Shown: piece by piece, positions 40,327-64,000 of the stretch
How the letters are laid out: each line of letters starts with the position of its first letter
How positions within the stretch are numbered: the first letter of the stretch is position 1
DNA from: Ianthella basta
Lineage: Eukaryota > Porifera > Demospongiae > Verongiida > Ianthellidae
Assembly (NCBI GenBank): GCA_964019415.1
Contig: OZ025871.1
Span: 5,764,213 to 5,828,212, forward strand
Direction of reading: 5' to 3'
DNA: 64,000 nucleotides
The notes under the pieces: model-generated
Database searches by the model: none
The model's input: the letters and a program-made list of their open reading frames with translations, nothing else
What the model was told of the DNA's origin: nothing
Translations under genes and position numbers: made by a program

Positions 40327-41019
40327 CTGTGGAAGGAGCCAACAAGACACATCACACAATATTTTAGAAACTGGTACAACACAACAAGATCATATGGAAA
40401 TTAAGACTACAATGAAACCTGTCTAATGAGACCACTTCTGGACCAGAAATGTCTGACCTTACAACCAAGGTGGATCCGGAGCTGCTTTAAGAAGATGTAA
40501 AACAATTCTGAGGATGCAACTGTTACAGTGCATGTGGACAAATTATTTAGCTAGCTAGCTACCTGGTGTGCCTTCTGATTAGCTAATAGGCAATGGCAAA
40601 AGCAAATGTAGAGTGCTCCCTCACCAGCAATGAAGGGGAGAAGCAACTGCTAACAAGGGATGATGGTGTGATGTTATTTGAGTGAGTCTTAGTGGTTAAA
40701 AGTACAAGTTAGTAGACATGTCCTTGCAATGTATCTGATGTCCGAAACTGCTCCACACTTCTTCCTAAGCTGTTGATCGATGAGTCTCTACTGACCACCA
40801 CATGGCATTGACATGTATAGTTAAGACTTCAGTGTGACCTCTGTACTAAAGTGTGCCAGTTTGCTCTGCCTAATGTTAGCTAATGTTATTACTTGCAATT
40901 GAGGACAGTCACTTGATGCTGAATGAGCTAGCTACCTCGATCAACTGAAAACATTTTCAAATGTCCATGTAGCTACAGTAATCTATATTGTTGGCAAGTC
41001 CAGAAAATCATAAAAACCA
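40327..41019. other. Duplicated 5' block, copy 2 (non-coding part)
   Basis: 40540-41380 aligns to 36200-37750. It includes a remnant of the basic terminal exon near 40605-40660. Confidence 0.6.
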
Positions 41020-41450
41020 TGCAATCACGTCACATAGCCGCCATTTCCGGAATTCCCTCCACTTCTCTGGGCTACTGTGAATACGATTCCTAGTGGTGGC
41101 TTTGGATCCTTCCTCACGATCTGTGTTGTCACTTCAAACGCCAAGACGGTGCGACAACTTATACACTTCGTTTTTCATGGGATTTCACCAACCGTTTACA
41201 GCCTGCCTGAGAATCGTATCTACTCCCATCAAATGTCGCCGTGTGGCTGCTCTAATCTCGCTTCCTTCTCTGTTAATCATTTATTTGCCATGTCTCTTCT
41301 CTCTGTACGTGTATGTTATGTTACCTGTGCCGCCTTCTTTACACGTGTATTTAGCTATCCTACGTGTTAGATAGCTGTTAGCTACAGCTATGATGAGCTA
41401 TGAGCTATAATGTCTCTGTCCTGCTCCCTCATCCTATCCTGCTGTAGACC
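41020..41450 (+). promoter_or_regulatory. Promoter-like region, copy 2, upstream of gene C
   Basis: CACGTCA at 41026-41032 (CRE-like), then tagccgccatttccggaa, which combines a YY1-type GCCGCCAT and an ETS-type CCGGAA. It is followed by 5' UTR-like sequence alignable with 37400-37740 and an acceptor (cctgctgtag) three bases before the ATG at 41451. Copy 1 has the full TGACGTCA while copy 2 has gained the ETS site. Confidence 0.5.
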
Positions 41451-41730
41451 ATGAGACCCGATCGGTGTAGAGTCTATACTGCACCTGTCCGCCACCTCCC
41501 TCATACACCCTACATCCTGGTCTACTTCAATGATGCTACACTCGGACGTGTTGGAGAACAGATGAAGCTCCTTCTACTAACACAGATTATGGTTGTCTTC
41601 ATTCTGTATCTACTCCTTTTACTAACACTGACAGTTGTTCTCAGTCTGTATTTTCTATATCTGTTGGCTGTGGAAGAGCTCAGCACATCTCCAACACCGT
41701 TGATGTCAGGTAGTGGAATGCTAGTATCAG
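41451..41730 (+). CDS. Gene C alternative first coding exon I (membrane segment)
   Basis: ATG in good context (gaccATGAGA) with an in-frame TAG two codons upstream. It encodes about 93 residues with a strongly hydrophobic stretch, LLLLTQIMVVFILYLLLLLT onward to LYFLYLLAV (residues about 44-78), then a Ser/Pro-rich end. The donor is tcag|gtaggt at 41730 or tcag|gtagtg at 41709; both leave phase 1. Phase 1 joins exon III at 44911 but not exon II, whose joined frame would stop, so exons I and II look mutually exclusive. Confidence 0.5.
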
Positions 41731-43255
41731 GTAGGTGCAATGAGTGTTGTATGTACAAGAGTTAGTGAAGGGAGGAATGGGGTAGACCTGAGGATTGTAT
41801 ATATGTTACCATACTGCTGTTGAGAGATCTCAATGATGTCATACAGTTTGTTATCCAGTTGCTGCTGTTGGCATATTATAATTATGGTAATGATCTAATC
41901 TGGAGTAATGAATGTTGCTTTCTTCACTTCCTTTGTGGTTGGATGAAGTGTGAGCAGTTAATGTTATTCACTCTTTCTGAATTACTACTCTCAGTTGTGC
42001 AGACATTTTACGGTATTTGTATTGGAACTGGTGACTTTGAACCACTACCAAACATGTGCCTACATGTGATAATATGGATATGTGATAAGGTGAGGAAGAG
42101 TGGCCGATGTGCTGTTGTGTGGTCATGTCAATATGTTGTATGCTGCAGTCAATGCATGACTCCATTCTTGTAATGTGTGATCAAGAGTACACTGACTTAG
42201 CATAGGCAATTGCAATCACAGAATGCTGGACATGTTTCCTAATGATCTTAGTATGTACAAGCTGATTTGTTGATGATCATGGCGTCAAGAAAGTCGCTAG
42301 TTTCCACTAACTTGGCAGGTGAATTGCTCACTGCAGCCACTGAACAACTCACATAGTGCAGGGTGTGCTCTTATGTTAGTGGAACCTTGTCATCATTCTG
42401 TGATGGCCTTAATGGCGTGGTCTTTGGCTGCTGTATGTTGGCTAGTTGGTTTATATATAGGGTGAGAAGGGTGAACAAGTCAGGTTGGCTACTTGGCTGA
42501 ACCTCCACTGTAGGGTGTAAGTCAGGGTCTAATACCGGCCAAGTGATGGCTTTTCCCTCCCTCACCTATTCGTTTCAGTCATGGCTTATGCATTGGGTTG
42601 GTCATCAGTATATAATTATAATAATTAATGGAACAGATTATAGCATCAATTGATTAACCCAATACAGGCACTTTTACTCATGTGTGTATACACAATCTGA
42701 CCATCCTGATAGCACCTGCAATCGTCATTGATCGAGACTCTCACTTCTGTTGCTTGCATGTATATGCCCTGGAGTGTCTCCTTCATTCAGGACTCAATAT
42801 TGAATACACATGATATGATTAAGTTGCTGTACAATTTTTCTAATAATGTATGTACGTACAGTGGTCACAATATTCTGCAACCACCAACTAACATAAGATG
42901 CTAGTCACCATATGGTGGAATTGATGGTGACGGTAGCGGGGATGTTCATACTGATGTTACACAATGTGAGCATTTGGTCACATGACTGAAAATGGCCGAC
43001 ATCATGTTTCTTGTAATTAGCTTGCACCATTTCCAGCATCTTCAAGGATCTTTTTGGTCCTCCAGCGCATGTGTTGTTTCTGTCAAGAGCATCTGCATAG
43101 GAGTGCAAGATTGCAATCCAAGGTGTTTTCTGTGGCTACAAACCTAGTCAGTAACACCTGACAGTTTCCTTTATCATCACCCCTGTACTCGGTGCTGTGT
43201 TGTCACCCTAATGGCACCATTGTTTGCAACATACATTTCATCCACCTCTAGTTTC
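41731..43255. other. Intron with one minus-strand CH exon
   Basis: A hydrophobic open frame (41820-42173) has no splice support. A small ATG-to-donor candidate near 42280 (gatcATGGCG ... ggcag|gtgaat) is not supported by homology. Confidence 0.4.
42386..42507 (-). CDS. Candidate C-terminal exon of a calponin-homology domain, 122 bp
   Basis: Minus strand, acceptor cttacaccctacag; phase 1 in; probable donor AAG|gttcca (weak). It encodes VEVQPSSQPDLFTLLTLYIN then QLANIQQP. Joined to the phase-1 end of exon 40326-40130 it would read LLDPE-VEVQ...PDLFTLLTLYINQL, matching how CH domains end (LLDPEDV...PDE-S--TYV). On the minus strand, however, it lies upstream of that exon, so the order is inverted. 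Confidence 0.45.
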
Positions 43256-44250
43256 TAGTCTCGCGTAGCCAGACCGCCATTTTGGTCACATGCAGACTCC
43301 ACCCTCCCAAAAAAATGGTCTGGGGACATTAGGCCCCTTCGGTTTAGTGCAGGAAGTCAGCGAAAAGTCGGACCGTCGCTAATTAATAAACTCGTATACG
43401 GCGAAGAGGTCAGCTTGTCACCTCAAGGTTGTGGTCGCAGCCACGGAGGTGTCAGGGCCACACGTGACTCAAAAGAATGCAGTAATTCAATTAAGCACAC
43501 AAACACGTATAGAAGGAGTGCAGTCAGTACTCCACTCTTTCTCTCTGTAGTTTCGCGCAGCAACAAGATGAGCAGGACCTGGGCAGAGGAATATACAGGC
43601 ACCACATCAGAGGCACTCATGCAGAGCTGCAGAGTAAAGACTTTAAAACTCTGCCACATACAGTATACACAAACCATCACACAACGACAGTAACAATTGC
43701 AACCATAATTGTTAAACTAATGTCAAAGGGACACAAAGAGTGCACTGTCTCTTTGTGTCCAGTGTGCATGTGGTCCCTTTGACATTAGTTTAACAATAAA
43801 TATTATGGTTGCAATTGTTACTGTCGTTGTGTGATGGTTTGTGTACACTGTATGTGGCAGAGTTTTCAAGTCCTTACTCTGCAGCACTGCGTGAGTGCCT
43901 CTGATGTGGTGCCTGTATATTCCTCTGCCCAGGTCCTGCTCATCTTGCTGCTGCACGAAACTACAGAGAGAAAGAGTGGAATACTGACTCCACTCCTATA
44001 CGTGTTTGTGTGCTTAATTGAACTACTGCATTCCTTTGAGTCACGTGTGGCCCTGACACCTCCGTGGCTGCGACCACAACCTTGAGGTGACAAGCTGACC
44101 TCTTTGCCGTATACGGGCTTATTAATTAGCGACAGTCTGACTTTTCGCTGACTTTCTGCACTAAACTGAAGGCCTAATGTCCCCAGACCATCTTTTTGGG
44201 AGGGTGGAGTCTGCATGTGACCAAAATGGCAGTCTGCCTACGCGAGACTA
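43256..44250. mobile_element. Mutator-like foldback element, 995 bp, 9 bp target duplication
   Basis: Two arms of about 480 bp are near-perfect inverted repeats around a centre near 43740-43765. Termini are TAGTCTCGCG and CGCGAGACTA. Identical 9 bp flanks tctagtttc lie at 43247-43255 and 44251-44259, the target duplication size typical of Mutator-like elements. No transposase. The arms contain splice-like and CpG-rich sequence and differ by a few percent. Its minus/plus ORFs are mirror copies of each other. Confidence 0.85.
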
Positions 44251-44575
44251 TCTAGTTTCTACCGGTCATCACCATTACTTTGACTGTCATTGTCACCTTG
44301 ATGGTAGATAACATGTAGTGTGACTGACAAATTGTGACCGTAATGTCACCACCATTTCTACTGCAGTTTTATTGCTGCCTACAGTAGCCTACCTCCCCTA
44401 AACCCCTGCTACTATATACCAACACAGTACAGGGTACCTTCTTAGATCTGAAATATTGAATGACAGTAATAGTGCTGGTATCATACCGAAGTAGGCCATT
44501 ATATTGTACTGTGTTAGTGTTTGTGGAACAGTCATGAACAGACTATTACTAAATGTAATGTACTGTTTCTTGTAG

Positions 44576-44810
44576 GTGTACATGATTCCTGACAAGGTGG
44601 GCAGTCTATCCCATCACTTGCTAGGCAGGAAATGTTGCAAGAGATTTAAATTGGTTCTGAAACAGATGGCTGCAACAGTTGCCAAGTCCCTTCAGCAAGC
44701 TGTGGTGGCTGGTCTGTTCATCTTCCAAGTCCTTTCATCACTTCTATCGATAGCTGTGCACTCTTGTTCAGCTGAGAGCAAGAGAAGTCACAGTGCAGCT
44801 GCATCAGCAG
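44576..44810 (+). CDS. Gene C alternative first coding exon II (membrane segment)
   Basis: Acceptor tttcttgtag at 44575, with TAG in frame just before it; first ATG at 44582; donor TCAGCAG|gtacag; leaves phase 1. It encodes MIPDKVGSLSHHLLGRK, a basic part and a hydrophobic segment AVVAGLFIFQVLSSLLSIAV. Same exit phase as exon I, hence interchangeable with it. Confidence 0.55.
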
Positions 44811-47800
44811 GTACAGTGAATGGTATGCTAGCAACTGGTCTTCCTATATGTGCATTGTATAATTATTTTACACATTTTACACTAGTGATGTCTGTTACTG
44901 TCAATTGTAGTGTCAAGCTGCCGGCACTGGAAGAACTGCATTTCCAAGTACATCTTTGCTCTCACTCCTTTGAGTCTAGTCATTGCATCCATTTCAGTTA
45001 GGAAGAGGTCAGTTCTGATGATAAATGCACATCATGCTAGCCGTTGTCATTGTATGTTGTTGCCATGCATTATGTGATGCACAAGGGCTGTCACAGAAAT
45101 GGAGCGGCTGGAGCAATTGTGCATTTGAAGGCTGACCAGCCTATGGGTAGTGGTTACCTCCTACCTCCTGTACTGGGAAGACCACAGATGTGTTGAATAA
45201 CGTGTTAAGTGTTAACCATTAGCATAAAAATTTGTTAAGATATAGAGGTGTTTCAGGAATCCACAATGTATGTGTATAGAGGTGTCACTGTGTATAAATA
45301 ATGTGCTTCTTGGCAACCTAATGTGTGTAGGAAGCCCATTTAGTGATGAAATGCATGTATGATGCTCCCTTAATACACATTGATCTCATTTCATTACATT
45401 TTTCCATGTTCCAATATGATCTTGCCATAATTTAGAGGTTGATGTGGGCGATAAGATGATGTTAACGGATTAATTGCCTTGTACCATGCTTGCTGCTCCA
45501 TTGCTTGTTGAATGAGAATGGTCGGGTCTGATGAAGACTTTTAATTTAATTGCGCTTTGATATATGCACATGGCCAAGTATGTATCATAATGATTCAGTA
45601 GGACCCCTATAATGTGGATACCCTTCGGAACAAGAAAAGAATTCCGATTATAGTGTGTCGACCCTGATTTTATGGGAAGGTTACATTAGTAAAATAGGAT
45701 GAATTAATCATTGGGACAATTAACAGTACATTTGGGTAAAATAGGATGGGACAATTAACAGTGTCCACATTGGAGCGGTGTCCACTATTCAGTGGAGTGG
45801 TGTCCACTATTCAGGGGTGTCCACAAGGCTGGATTCCACTGTACCTATTTTAGCTATTATTATCCTGGTAAACTGAATATTGGAACGTACTTGCTGATGC
45901 ATACATCATTATGTAGCTTCAATTTCATTGAATATAGTTTTGCTATACCATTCCAATACATTTTGCACCAATTTTAGTGGAATGCTATTTATTTAATTAT
46001 GCAATGGATATGTAACTTCACTGCTAACAGATTTTGCATTTCTACTTTGTAGCTGCCAAATGGACCAGGTCGTTACTAATGTGTTAACTGGTGGGCTAGC
46101 TCCACAAGTGCAAACAGCCAAGAAGGGTGCCAGGAGGAAGTGTGGTTGTTCTTTAAAGTCATTCTCCATTCAGTGGAACTATGAGATACCAGTGAGTACC
46201 ATGACACTCCAGCTGCATACTACTGCAGCTAGCACAGTGTCATGTTTGTGTCCATAGTCATTTCCATCACTCCTTGTTACAATGCTCTCCTCACAGATCC
46301 TACCTTTGTTGGCTCAGGCTGTATCTGTTACATTTCTCAGCCTCCTGTTGATCTTAGCTGGAGATGTAGAGGTCAACCCTGGCCCAGGAAAGGGGAAGGA
46401 GAGGGCAGCATCAGGTTTGTTTTGGAAGCATTGTGGCAATGAGTGTTGTGGGAAACTGTTCTTCTGACTGACACCCAATTAATCTAATATGTGAAACTTA
46501 GCATTGCTACCTGTATTTCTTCACCATATATATGTTGATATGATTATTTGTATGAACAAGTAATGGATTGGAAACTTGGCATGTCAGTTACAATTTGCAT
46601 GTGAGCAGATTTAAGTAAAATGACACTTAGACAGGATATTGGGGCTATATTCCACCAGTACATTAGCCTCGTTCCCAGGCTGTCTGTGTTAATTGCTGCA
46701 TGGGCAGTAAGGACAGCTGGGCACCACTGTTCGGATGCCCCCCCCCCAAAAAAAAAACTGGAGGGGGGGCACCAAAGACCATCATATATGTACCGTAAAT
46801 CTAGCAGAGCATTGCAAACTTTTGGTTAGTCCCCCCCAAATCTGAAAGTCTCTTAAAATGCTTAGTTTTGATTTTTAGAAATCTTGTCTTTGAGGATAAA
46901 ACCGGACCGGCCGGACTGGGTGCTACGGCCCTGTAACTGTTCGCGCTTAAGCTTTAAACGCCATAGACGGTTAGCAAACATTTGCGTGCAGAATTCGTGG
47001 GGCTCACCAAGTTCTATGTCGCTCATGTCACTTTTCTAAGACAGGGAACGAAGTCCTTCCATGATTGAAAGCGTTGTGTGAAGCAAGTCGCCAAACTGTT
47101 GGGTGTTATCCCACTGCTTTCTGTATGTCTTCAGACCAGAGGTGGTGTGGTTGCCTGTTCTACATCTTTCGGATGCAGAAGACACCTATGCTCCGCACGG
47201 AGCGACGTTTGGAAGCCAGTTTCAAAGTCCTTCCCTCGGTCTTTCCGGCGCGAGAGAGGCAAAGCAAAAGGCCGACAATATAAATTCTCTATCTTCAATA
47301 CATCCGTTGATACATTTTTATATAAATGTAAGCACAGTTATACTGCCGCAGTTAACGTATTATATAAACATACCGACATATATACCACCGGAAGTGGGAC
47401 ACGAAGCCATACAACACAATGTCAAAACGAAAACAATATAGGGGCTGCCGCAGGCAGCCCCTAAAAAGTGCAGGAACTAGAATAATAAAAATTTTCTACA
47501 AAAATAGTAAGGATGTAGGGATGGCATAAAAAGGACAGAAACAAGTAAAGGCTGTTACACAGTGGAGTATTAACCATTGTCCCTACATTCAAGGGTGTAG
47601 GACTATGCGACATTCTTGCATGTAGGGACCATTGTTAATGTTCCACTGTGTAACAGCCTTTGCTTGTTTCTGTCCTTTTTATGCCATCCCTACATCCTTA
47701 CTATTTTGTAGAAAATTTTTATTATTTCTTAATTAATTCAAGTGAACACAAAAAGTACAGGAGTGCAGAGATTGATCTGTTCATGTATGATAGTCCATAT

Positions 47801-50800
47801 GAGCCCATGTAATGTGCAGGATAGAGAAGTGGATATATAAAGTTAAGCTTTGTGTGGAAGCCATATTGTTTACTTAAGACATAACCCACATGTGTATCTC
47901 ATGCTGTGTACTTTGAGCTGTCATAACACATATGCTAATTTGGACTCTTCCTTCACCATAGATGCATCCCTACCTTCCTTAGTGTCAGTAGTTCTCCAGA
48001 AATATGAAGATGAATTTTGTGAAGTTATTGAAGCCAAATGCAATCTGCTTCAATTGGTGCGCAAAGGTGTGATTACACAAGATATTGAAAGACGTATCAT
48101 AGCCAGCAATGATGCTGATGGCAGAGAGATCTTGTTTGATCACCTCAAGCATCACAGCAGTGTGGAAGCTCTGTTGGAGTACTGTAAGGTAGCCTATAAA
48201 GCAACTGGCTATCCTAACATGCAGAAACTGGCAGAAAAGATCATGTCAGAGCTACCACAAGGAGGTTGGTTTGAGATATCTGTGTATCAGTGCCCTGTGC
48301 ATGTGTTCAGTATTCATGTTGCTGTGTATGTACACATTTTATACATCTGTTGGTGTGACGGACTGCCATGAACCCCCTTGTTAGTGACTATTTATAGGCC
48401 TTTGTTGTATCCTTGTGGTTGTATCCCCTTGTGTAGTTTGTGTTATAATGGTGCTATGTTCTAGCATGGTTTTATACTCGGAACCGCGGTCTAGAATAGT
48501 GTTCATGTGCTTATGTTGTAATGTATGATGTAATGTTAGGCGATAGACTAGCGACTGTGTGTTAGCTTGCAGCTGCTGTGTGTATATTGCCCTTGTGTTG
48601 GTGGTGATTTGAGTTTGCATTTGCGATGATTCGTAAGTGTACGCTCCCTGCAACAACTGTTCTATAACAGCCGGATAGGTTGGGATAGTACCGACTGTTT
48701 TGTGTTCTCAGTGCATTAGTAAAATGAAAGGAATTACAGAAACTAGACCAGGCTGAGTTAACCTTATAGGCTCGAACCTAAACATTGCAACATGCACTTG
48801 TATGTATAGTTAAAATGGCGGCACATGGAGACTAAATGACTTGAGCCACGTGCGCGTGCTTTGTGGCATTGTCACTGCCAAAAGGTGAAGATGATGTGAG
48901 GATAGTTCGACACTGTCTCCAAGAATACCGGGGCTCCTGTTTGCCAGTTCAAGAACATATGCAGGCGTGTATGCATGGACGATGAGCATGAAAATGAAGG
49001 AAGACGATGAGAATGGCGAGTTTCCGTATGCTGTAAAGCTTAGAGATTAATTATTTGCCTCTACCTCAGTAGCAATTCGAACGAGAGTCTATAGACTCTT
49101 GTCCAAATTGCTTCTTTTCCATGGACTAGTACAGATTGGTATTAGGGAGAAAGTGAGCGAATACGTGCAGAACTTTAACGGTTGATTGTGGGCGTCGGCG
49201 CTACAAGGAGACAGGAAAAGCAAGCCAGGTAAGGTCCAACTACTGCTATAGGTCCTCTGAGAAAGGCAGTCTGCTAGAAGGTTTGTAGCAAACAAAAACA
49301 GCTCTTAAACTGTGCCAATTTCTATGATGAGTAAACTCTTCATTCCGCTTACGTGTTTACATATTTATGATGAGTAAACTCGTCATTCGTGCCTAAAGGG
49401 TTAATTCTATCTAGGAACTATTTTTATGGTAGAAGACTCTTGCAAGGCTATGAATAACTAAGTCATTAGGCTGTAACGTCATGCAGAGGAGATAATGCTG
49501 TGAATGAATGATGTCAGTGATGATACGGTAACTCCCTGTCTCTAACTCTGCGTGCAAGAAATAACCACTGCGTAAATTATGGTAAAAAGGTTAATTAATA
49601 TGTCATAACTAGGGAATTATGAGTCTACCAAGGCACATATGTAGTTGAGAGTCTTCAAAGACATGCATTGCTATTGATTACATTGGCTCATGGGTCTTTT
49701 CAGATCCCGTTTTAGAAATGCCCTGCTTATTGTCTGCCTCCATGTAATGATGTACAGTCAGAAGTCATCAGCTGAATTAAATGCAATTACTTCTTTGTCT
49801 TTCTAACCATACTCTGCAGATGACAAAGGAGGAGGAATAGGGCAGCCAGGTGGAGTGTCTTCTATGCCATCCAATAGAGAAATGGAGGTTAGCTCAGCTG
49901 AACCATAAAGATTGTTTGCTGTGTCTCTGTATGTGTGTGTGGGTTATGTGCCTGTCAACATCATAGCTGGAGAAATTTACTAAATAATTTGCTGTTGTAT
50001 TCAAGTTACTAAGAAATGTTGCATTTAATCTTTTTATTTGCTAAGTTTAGAATGGATGATTCTATGGCCATAATGAAGTTGGATCTCTGTCTGTGGTCTT
50101 CATTCTGTACATATCATTGCCATGGCAACTCGCTTATATTTGCTGTTGCTAAATTTTGAGATTATGCACAGGAGTGTAAATCTTATAGCCTCCATGGGCA
50201 GAGTGTGTGTGTGTGTGGGGCGGGGTCTAAGAACTGGTTGATCCCTATGATATCATGTTACATTATAGAATGCCAGTTATTTACTGTATGTTGAAGTATG
50301 TGTCTGCGTAATAACAAGTGTTGAACTGTATCAGTCAAATCAGTTGTGTCTCCCTCTTCCTTGTGGACTGACTCACTATATACTAAGGATGTAGATGTGA
50401 CTAGGAAGAGCAGCTAACTCTATTTCCTATTCACTCAGTTGGATCTACAGTATAACACTTAAATGCTTCCCAATCAATGTTTGAGGAGATTTAGAGCAGA
50501 AGACACATGGGCACTGTGCCACTAATACTGCTAAATGTCTGCCATCTCCCATTCATGGACTATATCAATCCTCGTTGCTATCATCTTATCTTTACACTTA
50601 CCTAGTGCTACACTCTACCTGGAAAACATGGTCTATGCTACTTACTAGATACACCCCTAACCCTATACCTACAATATGTGGGCACCCGGGAACTGACTGT
50701 CAGTCAGAGCCCTGGCTTGGTGCTAAGGGCACTTTACCCACCTAGGAGACATTTGACCTTTAACCTCTAACTTATGCTATGGTATCCTATTTGGCCTCAC

Positions 50801-53800
50801 TTGAGTACAGGGTCAGCATCCCTTTCATGTCTTCTGAGGTAGACAATATGCAAAGAGAAAATTAAGGAAAAGGAAAAATACATAGCCATTCCATCAACAC
50901 CTGCAACCGACTCTTGCCTGCCTGCCATGAGTACTGAATTGTGCGTGTGCAGACGTCCCATGCCATGAGTGTATAGCTGATCATGGCTTCCACTTTCCAT
51001 GCTTTGACCTTGTTATTATAGATGATCGCATTTGCTGGTATGCCTGTGCCACCATTTTTGATGATGTCATTAACCTCGTCTAAAGCCACTAAACTTCAAT
51101 TAATGTCTGCCACCTCCTCTTCATGGATTATAATAATACTCCTTGTTACCCTCTACCTGACTACAGGGTCTATGCTATTTGCTAGATACCCACCTATGCT
51201 ATTTGCCAGACACCCCTGGTGCCCACATACATACCTACAGTATGTGGGCACCAGGGAGCTGACTGTAAGGTGGAGCACTGGCTTGGTGTTAAGGGCACTG
51301 GACCCACCTCAGTAACTGTAGACCTTGCCCTATTTGGTCACTCCTGGGGGACCAGCCTATATCCCTTCAGGGGTATACCCCCAGTTGATATCAAAATTTT
51401 GTGTTATGTATTTACGTACACATACCCCTGTGCAGCCGTGCACCACTAGCAGCATACCAATACAGTACTTACATAGATGTAGGCCAGGGAGGAAAGATAA
51501 AAAGAAGGAAGAAGAAGAGAAAAACTTGCAGAGCAAAAGTGCAGGCATGCGAAAGAAATACTCATCAGAGCATTAACTACAGTTAAATAGCAGAGCATTA
51601 AATACAGTTAAATACAGTTACACCTTGGGTTTGCTCACAATTCTTCCTGCGATAATTGCCCATGTTGGGGATGAGGATGGATGTAGCCCTTATAGGCAGG
51701 TAACCAGGGCTGGAAAGACCATTGCAGCCTTCAGGGCAACACTCTCCATGGCTGTAGCATCACTGAATGCTTCGAGGAGATGGGAAATTTGTCAATAAAA
51801 CTCACTCCTGCCTTTCTTCTTGGTACTTTGAACAAATGGCACCTCCTGGGAACAACTTCTTCATATGCCTCAGCAATTCTCATGGAAAATGCACCGCCAT
51901 TTCAGTCGCCACACATGAAGTTGAGATGCATGGGGGGAGTCAGTGAACAGAGGGAGGTCAAAGGAGGTATTCACCGTATGGGGGGTGTCTTCCTCAACAA
52001 GAACTTCAACTGTCCCTTTTTGGGGGGAGGTAGGAGCATTCCATTCTTCCCCTGAGTCAGGATCAAGGGAAAATGGGGATGGCGAGGGTGGCCGCATGGA
52101 CCTGCTAGGTGATGTGTCAACATATTCATTGGTCGTGAGATTTTGGCACTGATTCGTGTGCTTCGGGAGGCAGCCTGAGCTCTTTCTGTCATGTGGCAGT
52201 TAGTGCAATGCCCACTACCGGTACATCAGCAGCATGTAGCATTGCAGCTTCTGACGATGATCGGACTGGCTGAACAATCACATGACACTGAATCAGCCAT
52301 TTTCTCCTCCTCACACTTTCTTCATCAACGTGTCAACAACATACATGCCGGATGATGAAGACTAGCCAACATACATGCTGGATGATGAAGGCTAGCCTAA
52401 CTGTAAGTGTTTGATTGATTAGTTTGACAAAACCACCAAATAGCACGATTTAATGCAATATCATTTTGGAAAATGTAACATGGATAACACATAATACATG
52501 TTAGTAGTTGCATGGTCATAGTTGTTGGAACTGTTGAAAGTGTGGATTATCTATTATCCATATGGGATACTGCTATTCAATATTCCATTCTCATGTTATT
52601 TGACCTGATCTTTAATGCCAATGAAGAGTCATACTCTTCTTATGATAAGGTCAGATCATTGTAGTTGGCCGCCGTAACGTACAGGCCAGGCTAGGTTGAA
52701 AATAGAGGTAATCACTGGATTTGAACAGCCTTCTATATACACCAGTATTAGAGTCTCGGAAGGCTGAAGGGCCTGAGACCCTATTAATGACAACACTGGT
52801 GTAGAGGGTTGGTTGGTATAAAATCCAGTGATTGTCTCTTTCTTCAACCTAGCCTGGCCTGTCCGTTACCCATAGCCCTTTGTAATGCACTGACCTACAG
52901 TAGCTCATGCCAATGAAATCACGCTTATGACTTATATCCTTCCTCCCTTATCTGCTCTTATGAAACCACAAGTGTTTAAATGAGTAACTAGTTATCCTAC
53001 CATCCATCAGTACACCACACTGATGAGCCCTTATCAGGGTGAAACAGCCCTAAGGCTTGTATCTTTGTAGAATGACTAGCTGGGGAAGGTGATCACTGCA
53101 TGGTTGCCATCAGTAAAGATCCAGCCCCTGCCTCCTGAGACACCAATACTTGTGTAGAGGCTGGTCGTCATAAAGTTCAGTATTTACCCATTGATTCTTA
53201 TGAAGCGCCCACTGTGGATTGCTTAAGCGAAGTGGCCAACAAAAATTTAATAATTAGTTGAGCAGATGTGCATTGAATCGTTGCCACTCAATTAATTTTG
53301 ATGTATATACTTATTTCTCTGTCAGAAAGTGTTCTTTACAAATAGTACAATTCCCTGTCCAACCATTGTATCCCAGCTAGTGACAAGCAAAGTGAACCCA
53401 GATGTGATTGACATGTGTAAATAAACCATAAAAGTGATCAACATATCATATCATCTGCTGTCAAAAACAAAATGGAGGATCCCAGCTGTGCTAGGTAAAA
53501 ACAGTCTGGATTGACAGCCTGCCAGCGTTATGGGGCCAAAAAGAACAAGCAGGGTGATCCTAAGTTAGGGAATGACAATGACTGTTACAGATTTGGAACC
53601 TGGAATGTGAGATCTTTGACAGGGAAAGAGATTGAGCTGATTGAAGAAATGAAGAAGTACAGATTGGATGTGTTAGGAGTAAGTGAAGGGAAGATGAGAG
53701 GAAATGGAATGAAAACAGTAGATGGTATGACTTGTGTGTACTCTGGTGTGCAGCAGGGAAGAGCTAAGGCTGGTGTAGCTATTTACATGGTGGAAGAATT

Positions 53801-56800
53801 GGCGATGTGCATTAAGGAGTGGAAGTGTATTAATGAGAGATTGGTGCTAGTGAGGCTGAAGATAAAGGAGGAATGGGTGTGCTTTGTCCAAGTGTATGCC
53901 CCAACAGAAAACTGCTCTGTTGAAGATAAGGAAGAGTTTTTTGATACCCTGCAGGAGACAGTGTCGGGCCTACAAAGAAAAGATAAAATAATAATACTGG
54001 GAGATTTCAATGCTAGAGTGGGGAATAAAAGAGGAGAATGGAGAGAGGTGATTGGAGGGTGTGGTGAAGAGACATGTAATGATAATGGAAAGAGGTTGCT
54101 TGAGTTCTGTGCTACAAATGGGTTGATTATCTCTAACACATGGTACCTACACAAAGAAATACATCAATTTACATGGGAATGCAGAGGTAGAGGGCTAAAA
54201 TCAATTCTGGATTACTTCCTAGTAAGAAGAGAAGATAGGAGAAGGGTTAAGGATACCAAGGTTGTGAGAGGGGCAGAAATCGGTAGTGATCATTATTTAG
54301 TGCTGCTGAAGTTGACAAAAAGGCCTCACATAAGGCAGGAGGTAAGGCGAAGTGATCACAGAAGGCTGCACTTAAACAGATGGTAGCTCAAAGAGAAGGA
54401 AGCACAATGGAGATTCAGGATGAAGTTAGAAAGGAGACTGGATAGGGCAAGATACTGGGAGGGCAGCAATGTAGAGGAAGTCTGGGGAGAGTTTAAGAAG
54501 AATGTAATGGAAACTGCAGCTGAGGTGTGTGGAACAAAACAGTACAGAAATGCTCAGAAAAGAACTAGATGGTGGAATGAGGAGGTGAAGCAGGCAATAA
54601 AGAATAAGAAGGTGGCTTACTTGAAGTGGCTGCAGCAACAGACATTGGAGGCAAAGGAGAGGTATCAAGAGGCGAAAAAGGAAGCTAAAAGAGTGGTGAG
54701 ACAAGCAAGAAATGAGGAGTGGATTGAGCTTGGCAGATCACTAGAGGATGACTTTCAAAAGAATCAGAAAAGGTTTTGGAGTAGGGTCCGCATGTGTAAT
54801 GAAAATAAAGCAGATGTAGCTGGGAAAATATGTGATGAGAGTGGCCAGTTGATAGTAGATGATGCGGGAGTTCGTAACCGATGGAAGGCTTATTATAGTG
54901 ACTTACTGCAAGAAGATGCCCAAGGCCAGAATGGTAACCAAGTAGATAGGGAGGTGCAACTTGATGAAGAAGAGAGGGCACCAATTGCAGTTGAGGAAGT
55001 AGAAGTGGCCATATCGAAGTTGAAAAACGGAAAGTCACCAGGTATATGTGGAATTAGTGCAGAGATGTTGAAAGCTGGAAGGACTGTAGTGGTGAAGTGG
55101 TTACATAGGATAATGAGCCTTGCATGGGAGAATGGACAAGTACCAGAAGACTGGCGACGAGCTGTAATCGTGCCAGTACATAAGAAAGGAAGCAAAGTAA
55201 AGTGTGAGAACTACCGTGGCATAAGCCTGTTGAGTATCCCAAGCAAGGCCTATGCGAGGATACTGGATGAAAGGATAAGAAGCGTGACAGACAGCAAGGT
55301 ACTTGAGGCTCAGGGGGGCTTTAGAAAGGGCAGAAGTTGCACGGATCAGCTCTTTACCATAAGAAAATTGAGTGAGAAGATGATAGAGAAGAACAAGAAG
55401 ATGGTGGTGGCATGTGTGGATTTGGAAAAGGCGTATGACAGGGTGGGTAGAGATAAGTTATGGAAAGTGCTAGAGGAATATGGTGTGAAGGGAAGACTGC
55501 TGAGGGCCATTAGATCATTGTACAAGAAGAGTGAAGGGTGTGTCAGAGTAAAGGATGAATTGTCAAGCTGGTTCCCAATAACACAAGGAGTGAGGCAGGG
55601 CTGTGTCATGTCACCATGGCTGTTTAATGTCTTCATGGATAAGATAGTGAGGGAAGGAATGGAGAATTTTGTTGGAGGTGTGAAGATGTCAACTATGAAG
55701 TGGGTGTAGTGCTATTTGCAGATGACGTGATGCTACTAACAGAGAGGAAGGAGGACATGGAGGCAAATTTGAAGGAGTTGAAGAAGGCAATGAGTAACTG
55801 GGGAATGAAGATACATTGGGGCAAGACTAAAGTGATGATGGTTAGTAGGAAAGGAGAAGAATGCAAAGTGTGTGTGGATGGGGAAGAGATAGAACAAGTG
55901 CAGAATATGAAATACCTAGGAGCTATCCTGAGTGCAGATGGGACATGTGAAGAGGAAATTGAACAGAGAGTGGGAGCAGCAGCCAGAGTGATAGGAGCAT
56001 TGTGGAAGGAGGTGTTGGAAAGGAAGGAGTTGAAGAAAGCTACGAAGATGAGGGTGTACAATGCGATAGTGCTACCAACCATGCTGTATGGCAGTGAGAC
56101 ATGGACAGTGATGAAGAGACATGAGAGCAGACTAGGGGCAACAGAGATGGCTTACCTGAGAAGAGTCGAAGGAGTGACAAGGATGGACCGAGTAAGAAAT
56201 GCAGATGTGAGAGAGGCAGTTGGACAAGAGGAGGTGATGGAGAAAGTAAAAAGGAAACAAAGAGCATGGAAGGAGAAGCTGGAGCAGATGGAAGACAACA
56301 GATTAGTGAAGAAGGTGCACACTGAGGAAATTGCAGGGAAAAGGCCAAGAGGAAGACCTAGAAAGAAATGGATTGACAGTTTCTAGCTACAGATTTGAAT
56401 AATACTACATATTGACTATAGACTATGCATACGTAGATGTTACACTGAACTATGACAATGTCATAAATTTTTAAATACTGTAAAGATAGCGGCGACCTCC
56501 TGCATAGGAGATAAGCTGTGGTGATTGATTACTTGATTGAAGTGATCAACGTTTGATCCTTCAAATTGATCTGATTCATTCCTAGCTTTTGGTATACTAT
56601 AGACATGTACTACTGGTAGACTGTGAGCTTGCAAGACTACACAATGTAATTTTAAGGACAAATTGATTCATTGACCTAATGTTTACAGCAGATGTGTTTT
56701 GAATCAACTGTAGATGGTATTATCGTGAACATGTGACTGATCTTGTGTCATGCAACACACAACATTGTATGCTTTGTTATGGTTAACTTATAATACCATA

Positions 56801-59800
56801 TGTTTGTATTGTCTTCTGTATATAGATGGTGCTGCTGTTCTTCAGGAAAGTAGAAGCCTACAATGACCAAATGCAAATTGTACTAGACAATTTCAGCAGG
56901 GATCACACAATGAAGTTTGTAAAGCTTGCAATGGCTCCGTTCAAATTAGGCTATGAGAAACAGCAGCAGAGATTTGTTGAAGCAGTATGCGACCCAGAAG
57001 GTGTGGACAAGGTGTTAACACTTGTCAAAGGCAAAGTGAAATACGATGATCTTCCTAACATGATTAAACAGTTTAAGCTCCTAGTCCTAAGTGGTGCTCC
57101 TGGTGTTGGAAAGAGCACACTAGCACGGAAGTTGTGTCAAGATATATCTAAGAAGTGTAAGCAACATGACTATCAATTGGTGCTTCTGTTGGAGCTGCGC
57201 AATCTAATTGATTATGTTGGTAGACCTGAGGAGTTTCAAACCAAACACTTGCTGGAGCACTTCAGTGGCCTAATGTGTAAAGGATGCACACCAGAGGTGG
57301 TGGCTAGGGCAATTGAAAAAGACCTTGGTGAAGGAGTGCTCCTCATCCTAGACGGCTATGATGAGTTGTCTGCCCCACTTCGCCAGTGTCCATTTTTCCA
57401 CCACCTTCTGACACACTCCCTTCAGTCTCCCCTTTCCAGCTGTGACATTGTACTAACATCCAGGTCAATAGTCACCAGCGAAATATATCAGCATATGGAT
57501 AAGTCTAAGGCTATTAGGCATTTTGTGAATGTTGAGGTGCTTGGATTTGGAAAGGTTGAAATAAAGAATTATGCTCGGCAATACTTTGAGGAGCAAGGCC
57601 GACCTGACCTGCTGGACTCATTTCTGGATAAGTTGGAGCAGTTTCCCCAAATGAAGGGCCTCCACTCTAACCCAGTGGTCCTGTCTATACTTTGTGTTGT
57701 GTACCTATCCCAGGAAAACCTCCCCCTTACTCTGACTGAGGTTTATGATGCTTTTATCTGTGAGAAGTTATTGCTCAATTCAAGGTCTTCAGACACTCAA
57801 GCTGACTCTGTCTTACACCTTTCTGATGAGCATGATTTTTATCAACTCTGCAGCATTGCTTATACCTGTGTTGTTGAACAAAAGGTCATATTTACATCAT
57901 CAGAACTCGAGGGTCTTTCAGCAAGGTACTCAAATCGTGAAAGTGGGTGTGGTCTCTTAACAGCACGCCCTGTGGGTAAGTTGAGGTGTAAAGATGCCGC
58001 AGTGGACAGTTTCTATTTTCTCCATCTGACCATTCAAGAGTTCCTCAGTGCCATCCACATTTCCAGGCAGGATATTTCAGTTCAACAGGAGATCTGGGAC
58101 AAGTACCTTGGACAACCCCACATGGCTCAAGTGTGGAAATTCTTTTGTGGGGTAACCAAACTAGAGACTTTTGATGCGCTCCACCTCACGTCAAAGGTAA
58201 AAGACCAGGACTTCTTATTGCAGTCACTTTACGAGTCACAAAATAGTGATGTGACTAGTGCTGCAATGAAGAATGCATTCAATGACAGTCCAGAAGTGAA
58301 GCCAAGGACTCCTTACAGTGCTGTGGCTTATGGGTACTGTCTGCAGCATCACCAGAGCATGAAGAAACTCACCGTTGTCTGCCGTAAAGACATTCGGGTT
58401 CACATTGGTAATCTTCTCTCTCCTGTACTCCAGTCAGCTTCTGGCTTGCATCTGACAGTCAGTAAATGTCACCCTAAAGGTGAACCTTGATGCATGCAAC
58501 TATTGCATATGTGTTCACTCTGCCTTGGTAGCAGCACTTGTTAGATCATGTATGTAGCTGAATGCCACTTCAAGGTGTATTTTATTGCTGAGATAGAAGT
58601 AGTGACCCATGCATGGAGGATTATACTGGATTATGTGTGCTATTATCCATGTTATTCATTCATTAGGACATTCCTGAATGTAGATAATACTGAATAACGT
58701 GTAACCTACTGGGGTAAATTATGTATTATTACTTGTCACACAAGTTTGCTACATATACAGTAATTGCAGTTTCTGTAGATTGTGCTGCAGCACAATCATT
58801 ATGAATGTAGATTTATCTAGTCCTTCTGTCACAAATGGTACATGTCAGGAGACCAAGTAGTGATCTCAAGAACCTGATGCTACACTTTGCTGGAGATGAG
58901 CAATCTGGTGTATATGGTAATGATCACAGAACCCAACCATGAACAGAAATTAACTGCATGTGGAGTCTTTAGGTTTCTTATTAGGGGCCACCTTTATCGC
59001 TGACTTGTTGCATGTTTTCTTACAGATTCAATTACTTTAGAGTGAGCTTTCATGTTCTCCTGTCATTAGTTTGTCCTGTGTATAAGGTACACTTATTCAG
59101 CCTTAATCTTGAATTGTGAAAAATTGGTTATTAGTACTTACTACATTGTATAAAGCATAGCTGTTTTAGATTGAATGACTGTCATGTACATTCTGACCTA
59201 TATATAAACAGTGAACTGTAGTGGTATGAATGATTAAAGGTCACTAATGACTTGTGATTCTACACAATTACTCAAAGAATATAAACAGCCATCTATAATT
59301 AGCAAGGATGATATGAAAATGTTGACCATGTTTGGTATATGCTATGCAGTGTTGGTTCATTTTCCTCCTCCATGATCTGTTCAGATTGGGTAGAAGCTGC
59401 CAAATCTCTGACAATGTGTATGCATGAAGAAAGAGGTATGAATAACAAATAAGTATAATATTTTTTACTACTTTCCTAGCCTAAATGCTCTGGCACTAGT
59501 GTGTATCCCAGAGGAGGGTGGCCATGTATCACGTGGCAGTAGCTATAGGAAGCGTGTGTGTAGTGAATTTATACAGAAATACAATGTAATGTACTGTACT
59601 GTAGGTCGACCCTCTCTTTCTTGCTCGAACTTGCTGGTATCCACATACATTGCATACTATTCGAAGCAGTGATGAAGCTGAATCTATAATCGATTCTACT
59701 TCTCTTATACCCCTATGTCGCTGAGGTGGTAAACAGCAGAGAAGAGATATAGGGGAGCTTCTTCATGTACAAGCAAACATAGTAGGAAGTATGGAGGAGG

Positions 59801-62800: not shown

Positions 62801-63559
62801 GGCAAAAGTCCCTATTAAATGCAGCCAGTGATTCCCTCCCTCTATCATCTTAAACATCCAGACAGCTGTCCATCCAAAGATGGACAGCTGTCTGTGGCTC
62901 TCTCTTTTAGGATGTTAGGACTTCCAGAGTTTTGATGTGCAACTTATGCTTTTGGGGATCATCCCTCTGCAGAAACGTTTCTGCCCGAGATCTTAGTCTT
63001 CACCATCTGCTGACCCATTATGATGAACTGCATCTGTGTTAGATTGTGCTTGGTTCAATTCAACATCCTCTAGTTCCCTTGGAACCTGTCCCAGCTCTTT
63101 AATCAAGTTGCTAATCGAATCCATTTGTCACCTTCAAAGAAGCAGCACAGACATTGGTGGTTCATTGGTGGTTCAATAACAGCCTGAATGAAAGCATAGC
63201 TGCTTAGCCTTCACTCCTTCTTCTGTCTCATTGTAAGCCGTCCCTCCTTTCACCACCTCCTGCTCTCACAGACTACATAATCTAGAAAGTTCATATGCTC
63301 ATGTGTACTTCACCTCCTTGCTCACTGCAGAGCCTGAGCCGTGACCTTCTGGACAAGATGGCTACATCACTAGCTCAGGACAAGACAATGACAAAGCTGG
63401 AATTGACTGGTTATGATGTCTTTGGGCGCACCAGCCTAACAGCTAAGGAAGATGTCAAGATATTCACCCACCAACTCCTGTTGGGCCTCAGCAACAACAC
63501 TGCATTGACAGATTTGTCACTGAGTCTACCACCACAGTGCTGGGACTGGCCTTGTGATG
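44582..63559 (+). CDS. NLR gene C: membrane-like leader, 2A site, CARD/Death-fold, NACHT, LRR-like exon (partial)
   Basis: Model: 44582-44810 (or exon I), 44911-45007, 46053-46191, 46297-46414, 47962-48264, 49820-49887, 56826-58479, 60137-60264, then 63331-63559, with more beyond the window. All junctions are in phase; from the ATG at 44582 to 60264 it sums to 2736 bp, exactly 912 codons. Product order: two hydrophobic segments, a basic linker, a third hydrophobic segment ending in a 2A-like site, a Death-fold domain, NACHT ATPase, winged-helix region, LRR-like module. By family knowledge it is a cytosolic pattern sensor; the leader would be released by ribosome skipping. A terminal exon at 60377 offers an LRR-less end. 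Confidence 0.75.
44911..45007 (+). CDS. Gene C exon III, hydrophobic, 97 bp
   Basis: Acceptor tcaattgtag, donor AAGAG|gtcagt; phase 1 in, phase 2 out. It encodes a Cys-containing part (CRHWKNC) and YIFALTPLSLVIASISV followed by RKR, the look of a transmembrane helix with a positive cytosolic flank. Confidence 0.6.
45600..45845. repeat. Degenerate repeat with ggtgtccactattcag units
   Basis: 45600-45680 (aggacccctataatgtgg...) and 45765-45845 contain short reiterated gtgtccac-attcag tracts. Intronic, no coding role seen. Confidence 0.5.
46053..46191 (+). CDS. Gene C exon IV, basic Cys-containing linker, 139 bp
   Basis: Acceptor tctactttgtag, donor ATACCA|gtgagt; phase 2 in, phase 0 out. It contains MDQVVTNVLTGGLAPQ and AKKGARRKCGCSLK. 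The ATG at 46060 is itself in a good context (gccaaATGG) and could be an internal or alternative start, giving a much shorter leader. Confidence 0.65.
46297..46414 (+). CDS. Gene C exon V: 2A ribosome-skipping peptide
   Basis: Acceptor ctctcctcacag, donor TCAG|gtttgt; phase 0 in, phase 1 out. It encodes a hydrophobic run (LLAQAVSVTFLSLLLILA) that passes directly into GDVEVNPGP, a full match to the 2A consensus D-V/I-E-x-N-P-G|P. The break would fall between Gly and Pro at about 46383/46384, after 184 residues from exon II or 201 from exon I. 2A-like sequences at the N-termini of NLR proteins and in non-LTR elements are known in invertebrates. This one is in frame with a Death-fold and NACHT and has no RT nearby. 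Confidence 0.85.
46667..46800 (+). mobile_element. End of a TIR element related to 38086-38787
   Basis: ttagcctcgttcccaggctg ... gtgttaatt ... aaggacagctggg matches the right end of the 38 kb element (inverted). A possible opposite end is near 47040-47055 (gacagggaacgaag). A C/A homopolymer run follows. Confidence 0.5.
46801..47479. other. Intronic DNA, CpG-richer, no gene assigned
   Basis: Overlapping frames at 47065-47464 have basic, low-information content and no splice context. A short inverted repeat ggggctgccgcaggcagcccc lies at about 47441-47461. Confidence 0.4.
47480..47735. mobile_element. Foldback MITE, ~100 bp arms
   Basis: Left arm (aataataaaaattttctac ... acacagtgga ... ccctacat) and right arm are near-perfect reverse complements around a ~40 bp centre near 47590-47625. 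No coding capacity. Confidence 0.8.
47962..48264 (+). CDS. Gene C exon VI: CARD/Death-fold domain
   Basis: Acceptor cttcaccatag, donor CAAGGAG|gttggt; phase 1 in and out, 101 residues. Amphipathic helices: VSVVLQKYEDEFCEVIE, KCNLLQLVRKGVITQDIERR, DGREILFDHLKHH, SSVEALLEYCKVAYKATGY, then MQKLAEKIMSEL. Leucine spacing and the LV-KGVIT-DIE-RI segment fit a CARD or closely related Death-fold, the standard NLR adaptor-binding domain. Death rather than CARD cannot be excluded. Confidence 0.75.
48265..49819. other. Intron, no gene seen
   Basis: An aaaatggcggcacatgg patch with cacgtgcgcgtg near 48812-48855 is CpG-rich and could be regulatory or transposon-derived. A repeated atgatgagtaaactc motif occurs at 49324 and 49367. 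Confidence 0.45.
49820..49887 (+). CDS. Gene C exon VII, linker, 68 bp
   Basis: Acceptor catactctgcag, donor ATGGAG|gttagc; phase 1 in, phase 0 out. It encodes DDKGGGIGQPGGVSSMPSNR-, a Gly-rich flexible linker between Death-fold and NACHT. Confidence 0.6.
50540..51330 (+). repeat. Pair of ~220 bp direct repeats
   Basis: 50535-50760 and 51100-51325 share gtctgccatctcc-type starts, atgtgggcacc-gggaactgactgt and cttggtg-taagggcact. Same orientation; intronic. Confidence 0.75.
51640..52100 (-). pseudogene. Decayed retroelement ORF, N-terminal type fragment
   Basis: A minus-strand broken frame reads EAFSDATAMESVALKAAMVF then PALVTCL, resembling a conserved segment before RT in some invertebrate retroelement proteins. 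A Pro/Glu/Thr-rich segment lies upstream (52097-51870). Stops and a frameshift are present. Confidence 0.4.
52672..52870. mobile_element. Foldback MITE, ~75 bp arms
   Basis: acaggccaggctaggttga ... caccagt and its reverse complement flank a short centre. Arms have several mismatches. A related right-half sequence recurs near 53140-53195. Confidence 0.7.
53511..54386 (+). pseudogene. Retroelement AP-endonuclease domain
   Basis: 291 residues with GTWNVRSL, LGVSEG, VQVYAPTE, ILGDFNARVG, SILDYFLV and GSDHYLVLL, i.e. the Asn, Glu, Asp-Asn and Ser-Asp-His catalytic motifs of exonuclease-endonuclease-phosphatase domains, all present. It ends at a TAG after HLNRW; the next codons continue in the same frame into the RT part. 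Confidence 0.85.
54387..55709 (+). pseudogene. Retroelement reverse transcriptase, N-terminal two-thirds
   Basis: Same frame as the endonuclease. Motifs: VIVPVHKKGSKVKCENYRGI, GFRKGRSCTDQ, CVDLEKAYDRV (motif A), GVRQGCVMSPWLFNVFMD (motif B). The frame then stops just before motif C because of an indel near 55680. Confidence 0.85.
55700..56386 (+). pseudogene. Reverse transcriptase, C-terminal part (shifted frame)
   Basis: Begins VVLFADDVMLL (motif C, catalytic Asp pair), then MKYLGAILSADG, MLYGSETW and MAYLRRVEGV. The C-terminus is GKRPRGRPRKKWIDSF, an AT-hook-like basic end. A one-base indel before it separates it from the upstream frame. Confidence 0.85.
56826..58479 (+). CDS. Gene C exon VIII: NACHT ATPase and winged-helix region
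   Basis: Acceptor cttctgtatatag, donor AAAG|gtgaac; phase 0 in, phase 1 out, 551 residues. Walker A GAPGVGKST at residues 90-98; Walker B VLLILDGYDEL at about 171-181; sensor-1 DIVLTSRS at about 207-214; GLHSNPVVLSILC (the Pro-containing NACHT motif); and FLHLTIQEFLSAI, the winged-helix motif. All key residues are intact. NACHT proteins oligomerise on ligand sensing by ADP/ATP exchange. It is encoded in a single large exon, as is common for NLRs. Confidence 0.95.
58480..60136. other. Intron, no gene seen
   Basis: AT-rich with no splice-bounded ORF; small shadows only. Confidence 0.55.
60137..60264 (+). CDS. Gene C exon IX, 128 bp NLR module
   Basis: Acceptor gtatccccaacag, donor CACAA|gtgaga; phase 1 in, phase 0 out. 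It shares the VPLDLVV core and position with the 131 bp exons of gene A, one codon shorter and more diverged. Confidence 0.65.
60377..60514 (+). CDS. Possible alternative terminal exon of gene C
   Basis: Acceptor aatgtcattgcag; phase 0 matches exon IX. 45 residues (RYCVPPSLLTVRELTSF..., CTIQSICDTH) then TAG at 60512-60514. Used, it would end the protein at 957 residues without the LRR-like exon at 63331. Confidence 0.45.
   Translation, partial: RYCVPPSLLTVRELTSFTKQDCAILVESNALKINDCTIQSICDTH
60797..61145. mobile_element. MITE with TACCGTATTTCGC-type ends, 349 bp
   Basis: Starts taccgtatatcgcaaaatg and ends catttgcgaaatacggta-like (inverted). The interior is rich in ttcgcgaa and contains aaaatggcggatc. 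TA at the ends is compatible with Tc1/mariner-type insertion. Distinctly higher CpG than the surroundings. Confidence 0.7.
61146..61959. other. Unassigned DNA
   Basis: 61260-61420 is GC-richer (ggggcgagatccttgggac... gcagcgcgtgtaggtg) and looks like an insertion, but no ends were identified. Confidence 0.4.
61960..62206 (+). pseudogene. Retroelement 3' fragment (C-terminus of RT ORF)
   Basis: The frame from about 61967 reads NVLRRVQGVSRMERIRSEHI and ends GRRPRGRPRMRWSDNFK, aligning with the C-terminus of the element at 53461-56400 (LRRVEGVTRMDRVR, PRGRPRKKWIDSF). Diverged, so a related family or older copy, 5' truncated. Confidence 0.75.
62311..62334. repeat. (TTGA)n tail of the retroelement fragment
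   Basis: attgattgattgattgattgg follows the ~105 bp 3' UTR of the fragment, as in the 28.5 kb element. Confidence 0.8.
62360..62404. repeat. Perfect 16 bp hairpin
   Basis: gtctcacacaccagac and its exact reverse complement separated by 13 bases. Confidence 0.85.
62859..62894. repeat. Perfect 16 bp hairpin with 4-base loop
   Basis: cagacagctgtccatc / gatggacagctgtctg. The motif agacagctgtctgtgg also occurs near 11761. Probably a small repeat-derived palindrome. Confidence 0.8.
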
Positions 63560-64000
63560 GTGAGTTGAATGACAGTGTTTGATGTGTCACACTGACCTTG
63601 TAAGCTGTGATCATTGTCTGGATACTGTAATGTGTACAGCTTGTCATACATTGCCTTTAGTGGTCCAGGCTCTCTGCAACTAGTGCTGGTAATGATAATA
63701 ACAAGTGCAGATACTGACTTGAAGGGTCTCAAACTGTTCTCCTTACAACCTGCACTGTGTGCTACCTGGGTCCTAGTGTTTCATATTGTTGTAGCTTTCT
63801 AGTTGTTTGTGACAGCTTGATATTGTCCACTTGTGGTTTGATGTACTATTCACTCACACACCTGTCATTTCACTAGGAAACTTACATACATGGTATTAAT
63901 GCAAGTAGAGATTCACTCACTTGTTGTTGATGTAATAGTAATAGTACGTAGTAGGTAATTGTACTTGACTGCCAACCATGGTACAACCCATGCAGTTCCA
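63196..64000 (+). repeat. Segmental duplicate of 12052-12870
   Basis: Same order and orientation as the gene A block, introns included. The duplication is cut by the window edge, so its true length is unknown. Confidence 0.85.
63331..63559 (+). CDS. Gene C exon X: LRR-like module, 229 bp
   Basis: Acceptor ctcactgcag, donor gatg|gtgagt; phase 0 in, phase 1 out. Starts SLSRDLLDKM as in gene A's 12190 exon and carries six extra residues around VFGRTSLTAKED. Gene C continues off the right edge. Confidence 0.75.

Follow-up and report, generated by a model that had tools for sequence, protein, structure and literature searches.

In the sea urchin, some NOD-like receptors (NLRs) carry a 26-residue 2A (StopGo) ribosome-skipping sequence, SpNLR2A, for which skipping was estimated at 80% in vitro and of which a non-skipping mutant went to the Golgi (PMC4981915, Roulston et al. 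2016). For some NLRs that paper also mentions 2A "within the N-terminal region", and the sections consulted describe no long leader. StopGo sequences have been reported mainly from viruses, with few cases in cellular genes, and in reticulocyte lysate a representative of the leucine-rich viral class proved active (Li et al. 2026, PMC12846837). We analysed a 64 kb stretch of DNA ("the window": positions 5,764,213 to 5,828,212 of contig OZ025871.1, here C4) from the sponge Ianthella basta together with its genome (209 Mb, 96 contigs), and describe a gene that is probably a cellular two-product gene, in which one spliced mRNA would encode first a leader of 235 residues, which has three hydrophobic segments and closes with 2A/StopGo, and then a CARD-NACHT receptor.

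The sponge gene shares with SpNLR2A the 2A core, a leucine-rich upstream context, a position at the 5' end of NLR genes before death-fold and NACHT exons, and a potential dual location (PMC4981915). It differs in that the sea urchin sequence consists of about 26 residues at the extreme N-terminus and doubles as a signal sequence, whereas the sponge leader is assembled from five exons and its first hydrophobic segment begins at residue 92. A further parallel is the expanded CARD/Death-NACHT-leucine-rich repeat (LRR) repertoire of another sponge, Dysidea avara (PMC12909245).

Results

A conserved 2A core in an array of related genes

Exon 4 (46297-46414, forward strand; Table 1) encodes ILPLLAQAVSVTFLSLLLILAGDVEVNPGP, and its core DVEVNPGP agrees with the 2A/StopGo form (D/G/C/N)(V/I)ExNPGP. 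Skipping would be expected between the Gly codon at 46381-46383 and the Pro codon at 46384-46386. When up to one mismatch was allowed, the pattern matched once in the window and in none of 100 shuffles. The hexapeptide LLILAG precedes the core Asp and, compared by eye, fits the leucine-rich StopGo class ending in (A/S/C)G (PMC12846837). Viral StopGo sequences likewise join a core D(V/I)ExNPGP to a leucine-rich hexapeptide ending in AG, but they stand in a polyprotein, whereas the sponge sequence stands in a cellular immune gene and has Val at position x (Li et al. 2026, PMC12846837).

The 8-residue pattern was found 360 times in the genome (173 forward, 187 reverse) and not at all in the reversed control; with Val at x, 63 matches remained (control, 0). 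Thirty Val-type sites, all on the C4 forward strand from 3.96 to 8.19 Mb, make up the array that contains the window gene. Twenty-two of these 30 copies were aligned (the window, L043-L046 and L050-L066), while eight 2A sites (C4:4936175, 5066733, 5874677, 6202647, 6766272, 7292293, 7377290 and 7608013) were excluded for lack of exon 1, because of a long stretch or because the retrieved locus was truncated. The window gene carries an intact and conserved 2A core, at which skipping is predicted.

Leader exons 1 to 4 recur in the same order across the array. By our count there are 29 exon-1 matches, and in 28 of them a 2A site was found within 9 kb, lying 1.6-7.8 kb further on. Over 196 codons, the joined frame of exons 1 to 4 contained no stop in any of the 22 copies; over the 179 leader codons before the core, the two shifted frames contained 200 and 153 stops. 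Exon lengths changed among copies by multiples of three only, and the splice sites were kept throughout except for the exon-2 donor, which reads AT in L051 and L066. The ratio of non-synonymous to synonymous substitution (dN/dS, omega) was 0.50 overall (bootstrap 0.38-0.66), 0.57 for exons 1-3 (0.42-0.76), 0.30 for exon 4 before the 2A site and 0.17 for the 2A core plus tail. These values come from a simple counting method that ignores transition bias, and the internal yardstick is given by the shifted frames (0.88 and 0.97, compared to 0.55 in frame). The leader exons are under purifying selection by this measure. Pairwise identity was 0.91-0.95 for the exons and 0.87, 0.77, 0.913 and 0.64 for introns 1 to 4. 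One locus, L048 (C4:8146202), has the start exon, exon 1 and the CARD exon with no exact 2A pattern in reach, and is a candidate for natural loss of 2A.

Table 1 Features of the window gene and of a second leader (window coordinates unless a locus is named).
Feature	Position	Strand	Basis
Exon 0, start exon: 49 codons from ATG, donor AAG/GTGAGG, phase 0	41943..42089	+	Paralog matches
Exon 1, first hydrophobic segment	44576..44810	+	Acceptor and donor kept 22/22; frame open 22/22; omega 0.52
Exon 2, second (weaker) hydrophobic segment	44911..45007	+	Frame open 22/22; acceptor 22/22; donor 20/22; omega 0.50 (bootstrap 0.27-0.95)
Exon 3, basic loop	46053..46191	+	Frame open 22/22; splice sites 22/22; omega 0.69 (bootstrap 0.35-1.33)
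Exon 4, third hydrophobic segment and 2A site	46297..46414	+	Acceptor and donor kept 22/22
2A/StopGo core DVEVNPGP	46363..46386	+	Pattern match; same peptide in 22/22 copies
Exon 5, CARD	47962..48264	+	Phase matches exon 4; predicted fold
Putative exon 6, a linker continuing the frame of exon 5	49820..49887	+	Splice signals by eye; frame open
NACHT exon	56846..58490	+	Pfam PF05729 over 56856-58490 (E 2.4e-19); acceptor CAG by eye; 3' boundary set where the open frame ends
Possible LRR-like exon region	63286..63579	+	By-eye resemblance to a stretch of L039
Second 2A leader, single exon, ~145 residues	L040:9377-9820; C2 and C4 arrays	- (L040)	Starts MPIS..W; KKKGRKK stretch

Start of the leader and predicted topology

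Three candidate starts were rejected: ATG 44582, at which the initial annotation had begun the leader (kept in 15 of 22 copies, lost in 7); residue 31 of exon 1 (Met in 12 copies, Ile or Thr in 10); and, as the main start, ATG 46282, which would give a short 2A signal leader (kept in 17 of 22). No convincing start exon came from a search of 42060-44600, and scanning codons farther 5' gave an ambiguous result. When phase-0 donors with an open ATG frame before them were sought, one candidate with paralog support emerged, exon 0. It has 28 matches in the genome, all on the forward strand of C4, and every one is followed by an exon-1 copy (1.3-6.6 kb, start to start). The ATG is present in 27 matches, the donor GT in all 28 and an open frame in 26; among the 25 distinct sequences, the shifted frames held 102 and 138 stops compared to 2 in frame.

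Several observations concern this exon and its surroundings. A TAA stands at codon 8 in two copies (C4:6835499-6835645, L044; C4:4921713-4921859, L118), which suggests that some array members may be inactive, and the L123 copy has a 15-base deletion. Within the intron that separates exons 0 and 1, about 1 kb of the window (43258-44246) is absent from the compared paralogs L043-L046, L048 and L047 and contains two similar ORF-like (open reading frame) stretches on opposite strands. Window regions 35526-37730 and 40023-42061 are both matched by paralog stretches (72-90%), which suggests that the neighbourhood of the start exon was duplicated locally.

Joined through NPG, the leader comprises 235 residues (49 from exon 0 plus 186), longer than the roughly 184-201 residues of the initial annotation, which lacked exon 0. 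Its proposal of up to three hydrophobic segments stands, and so does its view that the upstream product is longer than a simple signal peptide, given a multi-exon in-frame leader before a conserved core. In the window leader the segments span residues 92-110, 137-155 and 207-225. Hydropathy exceeded 1.6 in all 22 copies for segments 1 and 3 and in 18 for segment 2. Because the first segment starts so far from the N-terminus, the leader is unlike an N-terminal signal peptide.

Basic residues lie before segment 1 and in the loop between segments 2 and 3 (156-206), and under the positive-inside rule basic parts face the cytosol. This charge pattern suggests that these two regions are cytosolic and that the end of the third segment is lumenal, in which case an unskipped NLR would lie on the lumenal side or outside and would not be tethered in the cytosol. 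The leader, once released, would probably be a protein of the endoplasmic reticulum (ER) or plasma membrane.

Exons downstream of the 2A site

Exon 5 folds as a CARD in the structure model, which gives the gene the N-terminal death-fold of an NLR. The CARD exon found no useful match among Pfam and PDB sequence profiles, and in a Foldseek search with the CARD model the first row by E-value was a Pyrin domain (E 0.84), with no row below 0.001. The initial annotation had read exon 4 as carrying a 2A motif in frame with hydrophobic, Death-fold and NACHT exons. The motif is borne out by the single match in the window and by splice sites kept in all 22 copies, and the frame holds upstream (open in 22 of 22 copies) and into exon 5, where the phase matches. 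The domain it called Death-fold is a CARD, and the phases do not match between exon 6 and the NACHT exon, so that the gene model is probably missing an exon; the frame is traced as far as exon 6. The possible LRR-like region had no Pfam match and was not scored by an LRR expression, and the gene may run past the end of the window.

A 2A site lies within 8 kb on the 5' side and on the same strand in 45 of 59 CARD exons and on the 3' side in one, and no opposite-strand pair was seen. A candidate phase-1 donor, the phase that the CARD exon needs, stands 7-10 bases past the core in 13 of 13 further loci (L021, L024-L026, L032, L036, L039-L041, L067-L069 and L073), which are paralogs and not independent. 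NACHT exons are many in the genome (469 first-look candidates, of which 102 were scored), and the evidence that 2A pairs with NACHT comes from four genes: the window gene and L039, L040 and L041, whose NACHT domains have Pfam E-values of 9.4e-19, 1.3e-17 and 5.2e-20. The frame through exons 0 to 6, the conservation of the exons, the selection on them and their linkage to CARD and NACHT exons are shown by the sequence.

In a protein search with the whole gene model, matches covered the NACHT part and at least one (P0044) also the CARD; judged by coverage, none spanned the leader. The named relatives were four NACHT proteins of the demosponge Ephydatia muelleri (30-33% identity), and the likeness to that species lies in the NACHT, which is about 30% identical. 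None of the 117 matches, the four E. muelleri proteins among them, contains the 2A core; since the remainder are mostly single NACHT exons, their lack of 2A says little.

Related and unrelated leaders elsewhere in the genome

The same four leader exons were found in L067-L069 (on C11, C7 and C2), with C11-type queries taken from L067 itself. The C11 leader aligned to the window leader in a single stretch (32% over 168 residues, E 2.3e-18, in an unfiltered three-sequence comparison), and pairwise dN/dS among L067-L069 was 0.32-0.37. Exons 1, 3 and 4 occur in order in all six inspected loci of a further type, type a (L024, L026, L032, L033, L036 and L073). On these grounds the leader is a protein family and not a recent passenger.

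The second leader (Table 1) is basic over one stretch, and its hydrophobic end leads straight into 2A. In L040, the locus in which it was seen before an NLR, that NLR has a Death domain (E 3.1e-6). Genome-wide it had 111 matches, of which we count 83 near full length, three of these with an internal stop. In a protein collection it gave 72 clusters at E < 0.001, and it is constrained: five copies gave a ratio of 0.46, with the core free of non-synonymous changes. Neither Pfam nor PDB yielded a clear relative, and its structure model is poor (predicted local distance difference test, pLDDT, 54). Comparison of the second leader with the window leader, and of either with retrotransposon leaders, showed no homology beyond the part adjoining 2A, which means that two unrelated leaders end in the same device.

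2A sites also occur in mobile elements. Loci L009-L038, the first 30 of the 360 in contig order, were classed partly by eye into 11 NLR loci (L021, L024-L026 and L032-L038, with L025 placed on weak similarity), 17 retrotransposon-like loci and two unclear ones (L015, L030). 2A sequences of APE-type non-LTR (non-long terminal repeat) retrotransposons were reportedly described by Odon et al. in 2013. Such elements share the core with the window gene, are abundant in this genome and at several loci place 2A behind a hydrophobic leader; they differ in that endonuclease or PHD-like parts come next and not CARD-NACHT. Six loci (L010, L011, L016, L020, L028 and L029) have non-LTR retrotransposon-like ORFs with 2A after a leader that is hydrophobic in an early segment (Kyte-Doolittle maximum >1.7) and endonuclease or PHD-like parts after it, the same layout as in the NLR genes. 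Within the window, reverse-transcriptase/endonuclease-like open frames were recognised by eye at 28543-30570 and at 53499-56386, the latter between putative exon 6 and the NACHT exon, and an open frame with a PHD-finger-like cysteine pattern, also by eye, at 518-1045 on the reverse strand. Elsewhere, L098 (C6:3134550-3134706), one of three neighbouring C6 matches, is a cathepsin-like exon with Ser at the expected catalytic Cys.

Discussion

We consider it likely that one spliced mRNA carries leader, 2A and CARD-NACHT receptor in one frame. Most ribosomes would skip the Gly-Pro bond, releasing the leader, and would go on to make a cytosolic NLR that starts at Pro; a minority would produce the fusion, which the leader would take into the membrane system. 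Majority skipping and a separate CARD-NACHT protein from Pro are the most likely outcome by analogy with the sea urchin NLR 2A. We infer the splicing, the skipping, the membrane location and a benefit of equal co-production from sequence and from papers on other genes.

Several points weigh against this two-product gene. Entry of a leader into the ER can inhibit 2A activity (PMC2978324); this would shift the output towards the fusion and could make the product ratio depend on the targeting of the leader. Fourteen of the 59 CARD exons have no 2A site within 8 kb (six of these have one at 8.0-14.3 kb), the exon-1 copy at C4:8146202 has its CARD exon and no exact 2A site in reach, and two array 2A sites lack an exon-1 match. 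Segment 2 is weak, falling below 1.6 in four of the 22 copies and reaching 1.49 in the C11 leader, and exon 2 was not detected in the six type-a loci. Neutrality is not rejected by exon 3 taken alone, intron 3 matches the exons in similarity among copies, and for exon 0 the +1 frame has the same omega as the real one (0.52 both), so that openness alone supports its frame. Two of the 28 start exons contain a stop and one lacks the ATG, the loss of the exon-2 donor in L051 and L066 likewise suggests that some copies may be dead or defective, and the genome-wide search with exon 0 returned C4 copies only, with no start exon for the distant leader families.

A short leader of the sea urchin type, starting at ATG 46282, would make a 34-residue 2A signal sequence that splits the NLR between cytosol and secretory route. 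This ATG is in frame with no stop before 2A and is kept in most copies, and the encoded MLSSQILPLLAQAVSVTFLSLLLILAGDVEVNPG resembles the 26-residue SpNLR2A (PMC4981915). We nevertheless regard this reading as unlikely: five of the 22 copies lack the ATG, yet all retain the exon-4 acceptor AG at 46295-46296, and exons 0-3 are open and constrained. ATG 46282 could serve as an alternative start in some copies. Slightly less probable still is a constitutive fusion, in which the core no longer skips and the leader is the membrane-tethering N-terminus of the NLR. The inhibition of skipping by ER entry of the part upstream of 2A (PMC2978324) would fit it, as would the transmembrane domains mentioned in NLR architectures of Dysidea avara and Amphimedon (PMC12909245). 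Constraint on the core is hard to explain if skipping is irrelevant, however, with the core identical in 22 of 22 copies, its low omega together with the tail, and its conservation in 62 of the 72 homologues of the unrelated second leader.

A further reading, in which the leader exons form a gene of their own or were carried along by duplication and are not spliced to the 2A exon, draws on the similarity of introns among recent duplicates; we think it very unlikely, since the same exon order is seen in paralogs only about one third identical, donor phases are compatible and the frame is open through all junctions in 22 of 22 copies. That the motif is a retrotransposon remnant exonized by chance seems the least credible of all. 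Retrotransposon ORFs with 2A are indeed common here, as the 17 of 30 loci show, but no such ORF was seen around exon 4, 2A sites recur with CARD exons, and the leaders resemble the compared retrotransposon leaders only in the stretch adjoining 2A (E 0.016). What follows 2A in the window gene is CARD and NACHT, not an in-frame endonuclease or reverse transcriptase.

Since 2A on NLRs is already known, what is new in the two-product gene, as far as our searches reach, is the long multi-exon leader: the literature searched gave no account of long 2A leaders on NLRs or of 2A in sponge NLRs, although the profile hidden Markov model study of cellular 2A by Rao et al. (cited in PMC12846837) was outside its reach and a prior description there is possible.

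2A is probably built into more than 100 loci of this one animal genome, counting the 30 C4-array sites, the 83 near-full-length second-type leaders and further type-a leaders on C2; in four of these genes the NACHT exon was traced. It is conceivable, though we hold it only tentatively, that the NLR loci of this lineage are true polyprotein genes, in which 2A fixes the ratio of a multi-pass membrane partner to the NLR and the leader is a receptor subunit and not a targeting peptide, two unrelated leader families having each become coupled to 2A. If skipping is confirmed, animals would use 2A to make two proteins per gene, beyond signal-peptide switching, and the sponge would offer natural leader/receptor pairs for studying the site of NLR sensing and whether NLRs have membrane partners.

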